Source: Limnothrix sp. CACIAM 69d (GTDB taxonomy: Bacteria; Cyanobacteriota; Cyanobacteriia; CACIAM-69d). From it: DNA of 64,000 bases. The DNA is taken from positions 62,001 through 126,000 of the forward strand of contig MKGP02000053.1 in the NCBI GenBank assembly GCA_001913845.2, in the 5' to 3' direction. Numbering within the stretch: position 1 is the stretch's first letter; each line of letters starts with the position of its first letter. A program made the position numbers and the translations under genes. Positions 1,904 to 47,729 of this stretch are shown here, one piece after another. Below the pieces are notes generated by a model. That model was not told the DNA's origin. It saw only the letters and a list, made by a program, of their open reading frames with translations, and searched no databases.

Positions 1904-3517
1904 TTGATTCCTCAAGACTTTTTGAGACAAATTGCGAAGGAGCATAGTGTCTCGAATACCGAGCTGGATGTGCTGGCCGCAGCCATCAATGGTGAGCCGA
2001 TGAATGCCATTGCCCAACGCCTAGGAATCCGCCCAGAAGCGGCCCGTAAGCGCTTGGGTGAAGTGTATAAAAAGTTTCATATCGCTGGTGCTGGGCCAGG
2101 AAAATTGGCCAAGCTTCAGCAGATTTTGGTGTCTCAGTATCAAACCCGCCAAACGCAGGGGCCGATCGTGGCAATTCCGGTCACCCCCGAAGTGGAAGTG
2201 GGCGAGTTGCCGCCTCAGTATGACTGGGGAGAAGCGCCGGATATTTCGGCTTTCTATGGCCGTGCGCAGGAGCTGACCGCCCTGCAAACCTGGATTTCTC
2301 AAGATCACTGCCGTGTGGTGGCCTTGCTGGGGATCGCGGGGATTGGCAAGACGGCGCTGGCGGTTCGTTTGGCTCGATCGCTCGAAGAGCAAGACGAGTT
2401 TGAGTTCATCATTTGGCGATCGCTCCGCCATGGGGTTTCGCCCCGCGAGGTGATTGGCCGGTTGGTGCAAACCTTGTCTCGCAAGCGCCAAACCTATTTG
2501 CCCGACAGTGCCCACAACCGAATTACGCTGCTGATTGACTATCTGCGTCAACACCGCTGCTTGTTGGTGCTGGATGGCGTGGAGTCGGTACTGCGTCAGG
2601 GGGATATCTCCGGACAATACCGCGACGGGTTTGAGGACTATGGTGAATTGCTGCGCCGGGTGGGCGAAGAGTCGCACCAAAGCTGCCTGCTGCTCACCAG
2701 TTCTGAAAAGCCCCGTGAGGTGGCTCGCCTAGAGGGCAATACGCTGCCGGTGCGGGTGTCGCAGTTGGGCGCGTTGGGCCCCGATGAAGCGGGTGAAATT
2801 TTCCGCGACAAGGGCTTGCAAGAGGAAAAACTCTGGAAAGAGTTGATTGATTTGTATCGGGGAAACCCGCTCACCTTGAAGATTGCTTCGACCACGATTC
2901 AAGAACTGTTTGGCGGTCGGGTGTCGGAGTTTTTGAAGCAATCGACCCTGGTGTTTGGGGATATTCGCGATTTGTTGCAACGCCAGTTTGATCGCCTGTC
3001 GGATATTGAACGGGCGATTGTTTATTGGTTGGCGATCGAACAGCAACCTCTGTCTTTGAGCCAACTGCGCGACAAGATTTCGATTCCGTTCTCGCAACCG
3101 GAATTAATCGAAGCGTTGGAATCCCTGGGCCGGCGATCGCTGATTGAGCGTGGCGCGGCCGGTGGGGCCATGTTTGGTTTGCAACCGGTGGTCTTGGAAT
3201 ATGTGACCCAAGAATTTACCGATCGGGCTTGCTATGAATTGCAAGATCTGTTGCGGACCCAAAAGATCGATCGCCTGGATCTGTTCCGTACCCATGCCCT
3301 CGAAGCCTCTGAGGGTAAAGACACGGGGCCGATTCTGCCGGCCGTTAAGGATCGGTTGCGGAAGCTGATTCGCAACGATCGCCAGCTTGAAGGTCAGCTC
3401 GATCGGGTGTTGGCTGTTTTGCAAGCCAAGTTTCCCCTCGAAGTGGGCTATGCCACCAGCAATGTCCAAAGCGTTTTGGAGTCGCTGCAGGTGGATCTGC
3501 CTCCGGTTGAAGCCTAG
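1904..3517 (+). CDS. HTH-NB-ARC STAND ATPase lacking C-terminal sensor repeats
   Basis: This 537-residue protein has an N-terminal HTH-like domain (about 1-75: AIAQRLGIRPEAARKRLGEVYKKF, then GPGKLAKLQ) of the kind found before NB-ARC modules in cyanobacterial WD40, TPR and pentapeptide STAND proteins. The NB-ARC ATPase follows: Walker A GIAGIGKT (143-150), kinase-2 CLLVLDGVES (about 218-227), a LLLTSSEKP sensor and GNPLTLKI. A winged-helix region and a helical linker close it. An in-frame TAG at 1883 leaves TTG 1904 as the only reasonable start. From family memory, the linker ending GYATSNVQSVLESLQVDL is normally followed by WD40 or pentapeptide repeats; here the protein stops five residues later, next to a repeat element. 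It is probably a signal-transduction or defence-type switch that has lost its sensor. Confidence 0.8.
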   Translation: MIPQDFLRQIAKEHSVSNTELDVLAAAINGEPMNAIAQRLGIRPEAARKRLGEVYKKFHIAGAGPGKLAKLQQILVSQYQTRQTQGPIVAIPVTPEVEVGELPPQYDWGEAPDISAFYGRAQELTALQTWISQDHCRVVALLGIAGIGKTALAVRLARSLEEQDEFEFIIWRSLRHGVSPREVIGRLVQTLSRKRQTYLPDSAHNRITLLIDYLRQHRCLLVLDGVESVLRQGDISGQYRDGFEDYGELLRRVGEESHQSCLLLTSSEKPREVARLEGNTLPVRVSQLGALGPDEAGEIFRDKGLQEEKLWKELIDLYRGNPLTLKIASTTIQELFGGRVSEFLKQSTLVFGDIRDLLQRQFDRLSDIERAIVYWLAIEQQPLSLSQLRDKISIPFSQPELIEALESLGRRSLIERGAAGGAMFGLQPVVLEYVTQEFTDRACYELQDLLRTQKIDRLDLFRTHALEASEGKDTGPILPAVKDRLRKLIRNDRQLEGQLDRVLAVLQAKFPLEVGYATSNVQSVLESLQVDLPPVEA

Positions 3518-3784
3518 GGGCTGTCGTCATCGGCTGGCGCAAGGCTGAAACGATTGAGTTTTGGTGCGTCAGTGGCCGTAACAAGGGGCTTAAGCCCCTT
3601 GTCTCTCCTGAATCTGCTCGCTGTAACAAGGGGCTGAAGTTCCTTGTCTCTCCTGATCTGCTCGCTGTAACAAGGGGCTGAAATCCCTTGTCTCTTCTGG
3701 CCTGCTCGCCGTAACAAGGGGCTGAAGTTCCTTGTCTCTCCTGATCTGCTAACGGCAGAATCGGGATTTTGGGTGATTCGACCT
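3518..3784. mobile_element. MITE-like element A with four tandem palindrome units
   Basis: The segment starts at the stop codon of the NB-ARC gene with AGGGGCTGTCGTCAT, then GGCTGAAACGATTGAG, the core palindrome, and GCTAACGGCAGA near the right end. Each of these blocks recurs in the same order in the reverse complement of 47389-47532, so the two are copies of one element. The unit GTAACAAGGGGCTNAAG..CCTTGTCTCTCCTG is expanded to four tandem copies here, starting at 3578, 3623, 3667 and 3711 (44-45 base period). The right terminal repeat has decayed. No coding capacity. Confidence 0.7.
3578..3752. repeat. Four tandem 44-45 bp repeats built on a palindrome
   Basis: Copies begin with GTAACAAGGGGCT at 3578, 3623, 3667 and 3711. 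The first copy keeps the full palindrome CAAGGGGCTTAAGCCCCTTG; the others have imperfect right arms (GAAGTTCCTTG, GAAATCCCTTG). Each is followed by TCTCTYCTG and a CTGCTCGC-like joint. Each unit can fold as a hairpin, and the array lies between convergent genes, so it may act as a transcription barrier. Confidence 0.85.
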
Positions 3785-3875
3785 CAATCAAGACCCTCAC
3801 TTCCTCTCTCTTCCGCTTGCTTGGAGAGCCAGGAGGTGAGGTTTTTTGATTGGAATATGCATTTTGGGCCAACGC

Positions 3876-4325
3876 TCAAGAGGCGGCCCCAGTTTGACCG
3901 TAATAGGCACTGTAATCCGTATGTAAGCGAGGATTCAGCAAATCTGAGACCGGGTGATTTTGCCGCAGATGTTCCTCCACAATCCTGGACACATCCGCTG
4001 GCTCTACCCGGGCATACCAAGTTTCATCCGGCACAATTCGCACACTGGGGCCCAAGTGGCACTGGCCATGGCAATCGCTGGCGGTGACGGTGACCCCCGC
4101 TGGCAAGGCGGCGCTCTGGAAAGCGGCCAGCACGGCTCCCGATCGATGGCGGTAGCAGTGAACGTTTTGACAAATCAGGATTGATCGCCCATTTTCCCCT
4201 GCACCCAACTCGGTCGCAGGCTGGTTTTGGGACTGGAGTTCAGAATCAGCAGCGTTGGTCATAGCGGTAGCCGGGGCGTGCTTGGGTGTGGAGTTGGGTG
4301 TGGATTGGGGCGCGGAGTGGGTCAC
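3876..4325 (-). CDS. (2Fe-2S) thioredoxin-like ferredoxin
   Basis: The C-terminal two-thirds form a compact thioredoxin-fold [2Fe-2S] ferredoxin: RSILICQNVHC (Cys52, Cys57), then ASDCHGQCHLGPSV (Cys85, Cys89), giving four cluster ligands, followed by VRIVPDETWYARVEPADVSRIVEEHL. Proteins of this type resemble the NuoE C-terminal domain and Shethna-type ferredoxins and carry electrons; the partner is unknown. The first 45 residues are Ser/Thr/Pro/Gln-rich and poorly conserved-looking. GTG 4325 gives 149 residues; ATG 4262 would give 128 and remove most of the tail. It is divergent from ftsX, about 115 bases away. Confidence 0.8.
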   Translation of the reverse strand: MTHSAPQSTPNSTPKHAPATAMTNAADSELQSQNQPATELGAGENGRSILICQNVHCYRHRSGAVLAAFQSAALPAGVTVTASDCHGQCHLGPSVRIVPDETWYARVEPADVSRIVEEHLRQNHPVSDLLNPRLHTDYSAYYGQTGAAS

Positions 4326-44813: not shown

Positions 44814-44910
44814 CGGTTGCGATTCTGAACTGGGATTTCGTCACTAGAGTTTTGACGACGCGCCCTTGTTTTCCGTGGCTTTTAACGGCATCAGGTATTA
44901 GGACTCAGCG

Positions 44911-45576: not shown

Positions 45577-45700
45577 AGGCTCGATCGTACACGCTGGTGA
45601 TGCAAATTGACTAGTGAACCATTTAGTTGGGTGACTTAAGTTCTCGATGGAAACAGTGCTTCCAAGATGTCTTTGAGTAGCAGAGTATTAGGATTAAAGA

Positions 45701-46435
45701 ATGCCGACAATCGCTTCATTGAACCCTTCAGAGTTTCAGCAATATGTAGCTGCTTTCCAATCTATAGATAATTTCAACGCTAATCATCTTCAAATACTTC
45801 AGATTCATTACCAAGCAGATGAAAAAACGATAACTGCAAAGCAACTTGCTCAAGCTATGGGCTATAGCCACCATGCTACGGCAAACATGATGTATGGACG
45901 GTTAGCTAGTTTGATTGGTGAAAAGCTGAATTACAACCCAGAACCAGAGAAGTTAGGCACGCTGGTTACGTTTGAGAAGCGCAAGGAGGAGTGGCACTGG
46001 ATTTTAAGACCTGAGGTTTCAGCGGCACTGGAATCATTGGGATGGGTCATAAAAAAATCACGAAAATTGTCTAATGGTCTTTTTCCAAACGAAGTAGATT
46101 CAGAACAAATATTTCGTGAAGGTGCAGTACGTCAAGTAATAGTTAATGCCTATGAGCGAGATCCTAACGCACGGCAAAAATGCATTGATTACTATGGATT
46201 GAGCTGTTCAGTCTGTGATTTTAATTTTGGCAAGGTATATGGGCAATTAGGCGAAGGCTTTATTCATGTGCATCATCTACGACTGATTTCGGAAATTGCA
46301 GAAGAATACGAAGTTGACCCTGTGCAAGATTTACGCCCTGTCTGCCCAAATTGTCATGCCATGATTCATCGAACCTCCCACCTATACAGTATTGAAGAGA
46401 TGAAGAATATAATAGAAGGGCAGTCCCAGATGTGA
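45701..46435 (+). CDS. HNH endonuclease with N-terminal helical/winged domain
   Basis: A 244-residue protein. The N-terminal half (AKQLAQAMGYSHHATANMMYGRLASLIGEKL) looks like a DNA-binding helical or winged-helix module. The C-terminal half is a zinc-stabilised HNH nuclease: CSVC (Cys169, Cys172), FIHVHHL (His189-His192), then CPNCHAMIHR (Cys215, Cys218, His219, His223). McrA-like HNH enzymes cut DNA in restriction or mobile-element biology. The gene is A+T-rich, lacks HIP1 and CGATCG, and differs sharply from ribE upstream, suggesting transfer. It overlaps a possible GTG start of the next small gene, whose better start is 46450. Confidence 0.85.
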   Translation: MPTIASLNPSEFQQYVAAFQSIDNFNANHLQILQIHYQADEKTITAKQLAQAMGYSHHATANMMYGRLASLIGEKLNYNPEPEKLGTLVTFEKRKEEWHWILRPEVSAALESLGWVIKKSRKLSNGLFPNEVDSEQIFREGAVRQVIVNAYERDPNARQKCIDYYGLSCSVCDFNFGKVYGQLGEGFIHVHHLRLISEIAEEYEVDPVQDLRPVCPNCHAMIHRTSHLYSIEEMKNIIEGQSQM

Positions 46436-46449
46436 ATGGAGCGTTTTGC

Positions 46450-46665
46450 ATGGTTTCGTCAGAACTAATCTTGACTTTAAAAGGACTGAGCCGCTCCGAC
46501 AAGTTCCATGTTATGCAAATTCTCATTTCAGAACTAGCTCAACAGGATGTAGATCTTCTTAAGCCTAACCAAGCTTATCCAGTCTGGTCTCCCTACGATG
46601 CCTTTGAAGCAGCAGATGTGATGTTAAAAGTGTTACGCACTGCCAAAGCTCAAGACCATGCCTAA
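46450..46665 (+). CDS. Small protein paired with a retropepsin-like protease
   Basis: ATG 46450, with GGAG eight bases upstream, gives 71 residues: MVSSELILTLKGLSRSDKFHVMQILISELAQQDVDLLKPNQAYPVWSPYDAFEAADVMLKVL. The first half is predicted helical (LSRSDKFHVMQILISELAQQ), followed by the conserved-looking YPVWSPYDAFEAA. I recall similar small proteins immediately upstream of retropepsin-like genes in other cyanobacteria, but no function. The 3' end overlaps the protease start by 8 bases, implying coupled translation, as in toxin-antitoxin-like pairs. Confidence 0.7.
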   Translation: MVSSELILTLKGLSRSDKFHVMQILISELAQQDVDLLKPNQAYPVWSPYDAFEAADVMLKVLRTAKAQDHA

Positions 46666-47086
46666 CACTGAGCGGTATCCATTTGTCTCTGGTGACATAG
46701 CATTGGGCGAAGCGAGTTTTCGCCCGTACTTGCCTTTTGTTCTGTTAAATCAGCAAGTTTCTGTGCAAGCATCTGCGCTATTAGACACAGGTGCAAGTGT
46801 AAATGTACTGCCATATTTGGTAGGGGTTGAACTTGGATATGACTGGGAACAACAAACAGTTGCGCTGAGTTTGACAGGAAATTTGGCACAGTATGAAGCG
46901 CGTGCTCTGCTTGTTCAAGCGGTTGTTGGGCAGTTTGAACCTATCCAACTAGTATTTGCTTGGACACAAGCTACAAATGTTCCACTTATTCTGGGACAAG
47001 TGAACTTTTTTATGGAATTTGATGTTTGTTTCTACCGTGCGCAGCTAGAGTTCGCAGTTAGCCCAAAATTAGCTGCGACAGAGTAA
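46658..47086 (+). CDS. Retropepsin-like aspartic protease
   Basis: A 142-residue single-domain protein with the aspartyl protease motif ALLDTGASVNVLP (catalytic Asp43 in DTG), a beta-rich body with QYEARALLVQAVVGQFEPIQLVF, and a second conserved segment VPLILGQVNFFMEFDVCF (hydrophobic-hydrophobic-Gly before a helix). As in retroviral proteases, one DTG per chain means it must dimerise to be active. Substrate unknown. It is the last gene of the A+T-rich HNH/small-protein cassette and overlaps the small gene. Confidence 0.83.
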   Translation: MPNTERYPFVSGDIALGEASFRPYLPFVLLNQQVSVQASALLDTGASVNVLPYLVGVELGYDWEQQTVALSLTGNLAQYEARALLVQAVVGQFEPIQLVFAWTQATNVPLILGQVNFFMEFDVCFYRAQLEFAVSPKLAATE

Positions 47087-47388
47087 GCTAGTTGTCCTTG
47101 CCAGCCATCTAGCACTGCATTGGTGCGAATGGAACAAAAGTTACTGGTGACAGCTCAAAAGCAACTGCTGCCGCATGACTATACCGTTGACTGATTGCCG
47201 GTTGACTAGATCTCTTACACTCACCCTAAATCCCTTTCCCAAATTGAGGATTGCTGAGGAATACCGGGGCGATCGGGCAAGGGCCGCGAAACCCAGTACC
47301 ATAGATCCCGGAGATTAGGCAGAAAGATTCAGCAAATCCCCGAGCAAACCTCAACGCTTGGCGATCATCATTTGCAATCTCGAAGCTG

Positions 47389-47532
47389 AGGGACTGTCGT
47401 CGTTTCGCCCGAAACCTCAGATCTGCCGTTAGCGGATCGTAGGGGGCAAGGGGCTTAAGCCTCTTGGTACAACGATTGGGGCAGGAAAAATCAACGGTTT
47501 CAGCCTCACCTCGAAAAATGACGACAGACCCT
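47389..47532. mobile_element. MITE-like element B with CTGTCGTC terminal inverted repeats
   Basis: The left end AGGGACTGTCGTCGTTTCG (47389-47407) and the inverted right end (AGGGTCTGTCGTCATTTTTCG read on the minus strand, ending at 47532) match at most positions. The 144-bp body contains the palindrome CAAGGGGCTTAAGCCTCTTG (47447-47466, one mismatch) and GCTAACGGCAGA inverted, as in element A at 3518. No open frame is supported. Flanking bases do not give a clear target duplication. Confidence 0.75.
47447..47466. repeat. Core palindrome inside MITE-like element B
   Basis: CAAGGGGCTTAAGCCTCTTG differs from the dispersed palindrome at one base. It is the central hairpin of element B. Confidence 0.8.
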
Positions 47533-47729
47533 AGGCAAACCGATCGATTCATAACCGGCGACAACCGATCAGGCGCTGAATCAATATGGCTCTGATCAAT
47601 CACTGAATTCATTTCTGATGTTGCGGTTCTTGAGGTTGTGGTTTGCGCTCCGGCCCCCCGATGCGCCATTTCCGGCCGATTTTCCTTTAACAACCATTTC
47701 TTGAAAACGCTGGTTCTTCCTAGGTTGGC

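Follow-up and report, generated by a model that had tools for sequence, protein, structure and literature searches.

Results

Gene organization and composition of the locus

The window, i.e. the whole stretch of 64,000 nucleotides analysed here, carries three closely packed genes between ribE and gun4, which encode an HNH nuclease, a small protein and a retropepsin-like aspartic protease. The genes and the associated sequence elements are as follows.

45588-47250, no strand assigned: acquired block, absent in genome G033 by pairwise comparison with L139; longest CGATCG-free stretch
45626-47192, plus strand: integron gene cassette, from a GTTGGGT-like left junction to the end of attC; left edge approximate
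45701-46435, plus strand: HNH nuclease, 244 aa; McrA-like C-terminal module (residues ~127-244) and HTH-like N-terminal module
46408-46413, plus strand: -10-like box (TATAAT) in the leader specific to the pair, overlapping the HNH coding sequence at its 3' end; conserved in HNH-free loci
46438-46441, plus strand: GGAG, RBS-like element of the small gene, kept in the leader alignment
46450-46665, plus strand: small protein PDC-M52A, 71 aa, putative antitoxin-like partner
46658-47086, plus strand: retropepsin-like aspartic protease PDC-M52B, 142 aa
46784-46792, plus strand: catalytic motif D43-T44-G45 of the protease; D and G unchanged across 99 homologues
47108-47192, plus strand: attC recombination site, partly decayed, located by covariance model R2, from whose alignment the window copy was left out

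The left edge of the cassette was placed at the limit of similarity to L049 and L050, the right edge by the attC model. The small gene and the protease gene overlap by 8 bp and form a bicistronic operon with the antitoxin-like gene first. As the ATG of the small gene at 46450 is invariant among 60 homologues, a start at the GTG further upstream (46432) is unlikely. A search for a Rho-independent terminator at the cassette found none.

The GC content of the HNH, small-protein and protease genes (0.41, 0.43 and 0.44, respectively) is far below that of ribE (0.60) and gun4 (0.58), and only 6 of 1253 sliding windows of the same length within the 64-kb window are as low. While CGATCG occurs at 5.2 sites per kb across the window, the cassette has none, and no other stretch of the window free of the site is as long as 45582-47270. 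The three open reading frames, the low GC content and the HIP1 gap are thus all located where a sequence-only reading of this DNA had placed them.

The cassette is absent from a genome of the same genus

In G033, a genome of the same genus with flanks about 96% identical, 42 bp between ribE and gun4 replace window positions 45588-47250, and the block that is absent coincides with the longest CGATCG-free stretch. Such presence and absence between genomes of one genus fits an insertion, and the comparison demonstrates that the block is foreign and was acquired into the ribE-gun4 gap. A unit of HNH gene and pair, 85-87% identical, is also found in L049 and L050 from two other genomes; these two loci are 93.5% identical to each other across 1.85 kb, while their flanks share nothing. 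A transposon with terminal inverted repeats or a target-site duplication was considered and rejected, with repeats only at chance level. The MITE-like element region downstream (47251-47700) is partly conserved at the cassette-free site of G033 and is therefore not part of the cassette.

A second presence/absence difference lies less than 1 kb from the cassette. Just upstream of ribE, G033 carries about 1.5 kb that is absent from the window (44859-44872 versus L139 2303-3771).

The block ends in an integron attC site

Comparison of the cassette ends of L049 and L050 showed an element of about 95 bp located 3' of the protease gene, which in L050 is also present before the cassette and once more one cassette further upstream. 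Alignment of 13 such elements, from which the window copy was excluded, reveals outer boxes (CTAAC...GTTAG), an inner stem, unpaired single bases and a variable loop, i.e. the anatomy of attC. The hand-specified stem has 14 compensatory cells compared to a mean of 6.1 in shuffled alignments, with none of 500 shuffles as high, and this covariation collapses once the stem is slid. A bottom-strand hairpin with a z score of about -2.5 is found for the L049 copy and the upstream L050 copy, while folding is weaker in the rest of the copies tested. A first model with an automatic consensus structure (R1) missed the outer boxes, and model R2 was used instead.

A cmsearch with R2 yields a single match in the window, at 47108-47192 (42.5 bits, E 8.5e-11), beginning 22 bp past the protease stop codon. 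This copy is partly decayed, with a mismatched stem and no significant fold by itself. As the block ends in attC, the comparative data identify 45626-47192 as an integron gene cassette with its attC just past the protease gene. The earlier description of the three genes as a cassette is thereby borne out in the literal sense, with an empty site in G033 and an attC at the end.

A search of the window's genome (G000) for an integron integrase found none and gave only weak XerC/D-like matches. As this genome holds just one further attC of the type, the cassette is a lone one and not an integron. The second site (C53:71920-72004, L249 2421-2505, 97.7 bits) lies immediately 3' of a gene for an N6-adenine DNA methylase and thus represents another lone integron cassette related to defence.

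Cassette arrays in relatives

An attC directly follows the pair of small gene and protease gene in L049, L050, G296, L036, L053, L054, L003, L004, Microcystis loci, L024, L196 and L199. Most pair loci have no adjacent attC match, because R2 recognises one attC type only. In L050 the cassette is flanked by attCs at 1600-1684 and 3451-3535, and in G296, whose genome has three integron integrases, a cassette of HNH gene and pair lies between attCs. On contig C10 of G058 the pair forms a single cassette of an array with seven attCs, accompanied by Fic/Doc, HNH and PIN-domain cassettes, and an integrase fragment lies beyond the array on the opposite strand. Integrase fragments also occur near the pair in Microcystis G095 and G064. 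A cassette array with IntI or its remnants is the context of the pair in G058 C10, G296, L050, G095 and G064. Among 291 cyanobacterial genomes, this attC type is found in 30 of 54 genomes with the pair compared to 21 of 237 without it (P 3e-13, a value that ignores relatedness and genome size).

Two further observations concern the content of these cassettes. A near-identical Uma2 gene is found in attC cassettes of two genomes (L050 1015-1578 and L252 3499-4062) and represents another cassette shared between genomes. In Microcystis L251 a gene at 3658-4044, RelE-like by eye and with no Pfam match, shares the cassette of the pair at the position of the HNH gene.

The protease is paired with a conserved small protein

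In the 107 loci where BLAST detected both genes, the two are without exception on the same strand, and they mostly overlap. Adjacency in other genomes, on which the sequence-only reading had made its proposal depend, is thus near universal. The pair is abundant in cyanobacteria and also found in Chloroflexota, Planctomycetota and Thermodesulfobacteriota. It is patchy and multicopy, occurring in integron arrays and on plasmids, and a search of phage genomes found none. Both proteins match the models of the PADLOC-DB candidate defence system PDC-M52 (7e-6 and 2.8e-53), which has the same adjacent arrangement of an M52A small protein and M52B; our literature search found no paper or experiment on PDC-M52.

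The leader of the pair, comprising the -10-like box and the GGAG, is conserved at loci that have no HNH gene; in the window it extends over the 3' end of that gene. A consensus promoter scan listed no plus-strand promoter at the leader (46408-46413). Among the loci examined, no natural fusion of the small protein and the protease was found. At L022 303-1499 the small-protein sequence lies in frame at the C-terminus of an ORF of 398 aa for a CPBP-like membrane protease, which is either a fusion or the result of a lost stop codon.

Structural models of the two proteins

The D and G of the D-T/S-G motif of the protease are invariant in 99 of 99 homologues. Its structure model is confident and predicts a retropepsin fold, with the best match to the Rickettsia retropepsin 5c9f (Z 14.5, 124 residues, 16% identity) and lower-ranked matches to Ddi1 and to retroviral proteases (Z 10-11 for the latter). 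These data, together with Pfam matches to PF13650 (2e-5) and, weakly, to PF01844, uphold the identities first proposed from the sequence, namely an HNH protein and a single-DTG, retropepsin-like protease. In searches by sequence neither the protease nor the small protein gave a convincing match to a solved structure.

The small protein is predicted to form helices at residues 4-11, 15-32 and 51-69, and the extended segment between them holds a conserved Y-P-x-W-S-P motif. No fold match was found for its model. Weak matches to Unstab_antitox occur in 6 of 60 small proteins, with no confident match to an antitoxin family. Tyr-Pro is a cleavage site of retroviral proteases, and by analogy the Y-P-x-W-S-P motif may resemble such sites.

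Apparently asymmetric decay within the pair

We then counted the genes in the same 291 cyanobacterial genomes. Of the proteases, 74 are intact, 16 are fragments and 7 contain stop codons, while the small genes number 100. By BLAST a small gene lies beside 56 of the 74 intact proteases, and a profile search adds divergent ones at 16 of the other 18, so that 72 of 74 have a small gene directly upstream. In the two exceptions, G002 and G189, no ATG lies close to where the small gene should begin. Conversely, 44 of 100 small genes are without an intact protease (33 with none nearby, 11 with a broken one). These orphans have pN/pS values of 0.13-0.39, similar to paired genes, and thus look constrained, while part of the divergence may predate loss of the protease. 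The asymmetry is significant when every locus is counted and the double length of the protease gene is allowed for (P 7e-6), and weakens to P 0.005-0.08 after merging related orphans, again allowing for gene length. The overlap of the two genes, by coupling their translation, could account for part of it. No recurring alternative partner of the orphans was found, the one HicA-like neighbour being at L207 1288-1536, where an orphan small gene is followed by a HicA-like gene with a 16-bp overlap; this is possibly a partner swap to another toxin.

These counts demonstrate, at the level of gene content, that the protease hardly ever occurs without its small partner, and a toxin-antitoxin system would be predicted to leave a decay asymmetry of this kind. 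We infer that the pair is a toxin-antitoxin-like or abortive-defence module, in which the protease would be harmful when unpaired and the partner would inhibit it by binding, serving addiction or phage defence. The toxin-antitoxin likeness raised in the sequence-only reading thus fits the conserved pairing and the direction of decay (72/74 versus 44/100), while the statistical strength of the latter diminishes once related orphans are merged. In molecular terms, the small helical protein would be made first, then bind the retropepsin and keep the protease off, its extended Y-P-x-W-S-P segment probably being presented to the active-site cleft of the predicted protease dimer. When the small protein is lost or damaged, for example by phage attack or cassette loss, the freed protease would harm the cell. 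The more specific proposal, that the retropepsin is a toxin or abortive-infection effector, that its 71-aa partner acts as a pseudo-substrate through the Q-[SA]-Y-P-x-W-S-P motif, and that cleavage or loss of the partner is the trigger, is put forward only tentatively.

Two other readings of the pair have to be considered. It could be a direct antiphage system, as its PADLOC entry presumes, in which the protease cuts a phage protein, or cell proteins during infection only, does no harm at other times, and has the small protein as its sensor. The matches to the PDC-M52 models, the lack of the pair in phages and the neighbouring Fic/Doc, PIN and HNH cassettes are all in line with this, as is the finding that Vibrio integron cassettes encode phage defence (PMC12409362); however, PDC entries are candidates, M52 is without a published experiment in our literature search, and the orphan asymmetry is left unexplained unless the unpaired protease is harmful. 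We therefore regard a direct antiphage role as possible but doubtful. Alternatively, the pair could be a non-toxic regulatory protease with an adaptor or substrate, where the role of the small protein is to bring in substrates or to switch on the enzyme. Dependence on partner proteins is common among known bacterial A2-like proteases, and in the RimA/RimB/RimK complex a retropepsin-like protease acts with partners in ribosome modification (PMC11957791); obligate pairing and gene order fit an adaptor as well. Yet an adaptor should be useless without its protease, while orphan small genes are common and apparently constrained, and a patchy, multicopy pair borne on integrons and plasmids is unlike a housekeeping regulator, which makes this reading unlikely.

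The HNH gene is separable from the pair

Within the HNH family the C-terminal HNH module is conserved while the N-terminal modules change, being HTH-like in the window and G058, HTH plus about 98 residues in G284, EVE in L036 and yet another in G296; the EVE reader, just below the cut-off, is found in the relative L036 only. The window HNH is below the Pfam cut-off while most relatives are above it, and a match to mREase_IV is weak. These similarities make a type IV-like (McrA-like), modification-dependent restriction nuclease the most likely identity of the protein.

The in-frame segment of about 98 residues that separates the HTH-like and HNH modules is present in L050 and G284. The window gene is without it (at 46074-46077), and G058 has a short form like that of the window.

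In six genomes the pair is immediately preceded by an HNH gene, and no attC was detected between the two. The co-occurrence on which the sequence-only reading had also made its proposal depend does recur, though in a minority only (6 of 109 distinct pair loci), and the HNH-linked pairs fall inside one subclade of 15 without being monophyletic. Most pairs are without an HNH gene and most HNH genes are without the pair. The two modest-coverage MAGs L049 and L050 have an intact pair and a broken HNH gene, G058 has an intact HNH gene and a broken pair, and in L163 and L041 the HNH gene occurs alone, ending in attC. The HNH gene and the pair are thus separable units by their distribution and decay. 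Since the HNH gene also occurs alone in attC cassettes, two adjacent cassettes most likely fused to give the three-gene cassette, the HNH gene having joined the pair when the intervening attC was presumably lost.

A circuit in which the HNH nuclease is a target of the protease, or is released when the protease acts on the small protein, draws on the same-strand arrangement in six genomes, which is far above chance and involves three kinds of N-terminal module, and on the shared cassette without internal attC, but is not supported because the parts decay alone, each mostly occurs without the other, the HNH gene has attC cassettes of its own and the pair keeps its own leader; it is the least likely of the readings and highly improbable.

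Discussion

Taken together, an acquired integron cassette that combines a toxin-antitoxin-like or abortive-defence pair with a separate McrA-like HNH nuclease is the best explanation of the locus, and we consider it rather probable as a whole.

Several known systems resemble its parts. The PDC-M52 entry is a candidate only, to which our analysis adds that the protease is a retropepsin, that the pair appears to decay asymmetrically, and that it occurs next to integron attC sites and, here, in the company of an HNH gene. The Rickettsia APRc (PDB 5c9f) and Pseudomonas RimB (PMC11957791) share the retropepsin fold and the single D-T-G motif, whereas the window protease is short, has no predicted extra domain, is nearly always paired with a small upstream gene and is mobile. 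Our literature search found no report of a retropepsin as a toxin or defence effector. With McrA-type and EVE-HNH type IV enzymes, the HNH protein has in common a C-terminal HNH with CxxC pairs and, in its relatives, N-terminal exchange including EVE; its similarity is however weak and below curated cut-offs, and its N-terminus is HTH-like with no known base reader. As in the sedentary chromosomal integrons of Vibrio (PMC12409362), ORFs are followed by attC, and relatives have arrays, an integrase and defence or toxin-antitoxin neighbours. In contrast to these, the present cassette is cyanobacterial, holds three genes and is a lone one with a decayed attC in a genome without integrase.

The locus shows how a composite cassette, comprising a restriction-type nuclease and an addiction-like pair, can arise, and would extend to cyanobacteria the Vibrio finding that integron cassettes store defence genes. 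Bacterial retropepsins are poorly understood, and this widespread integron-borne pair provides a directly testable case.
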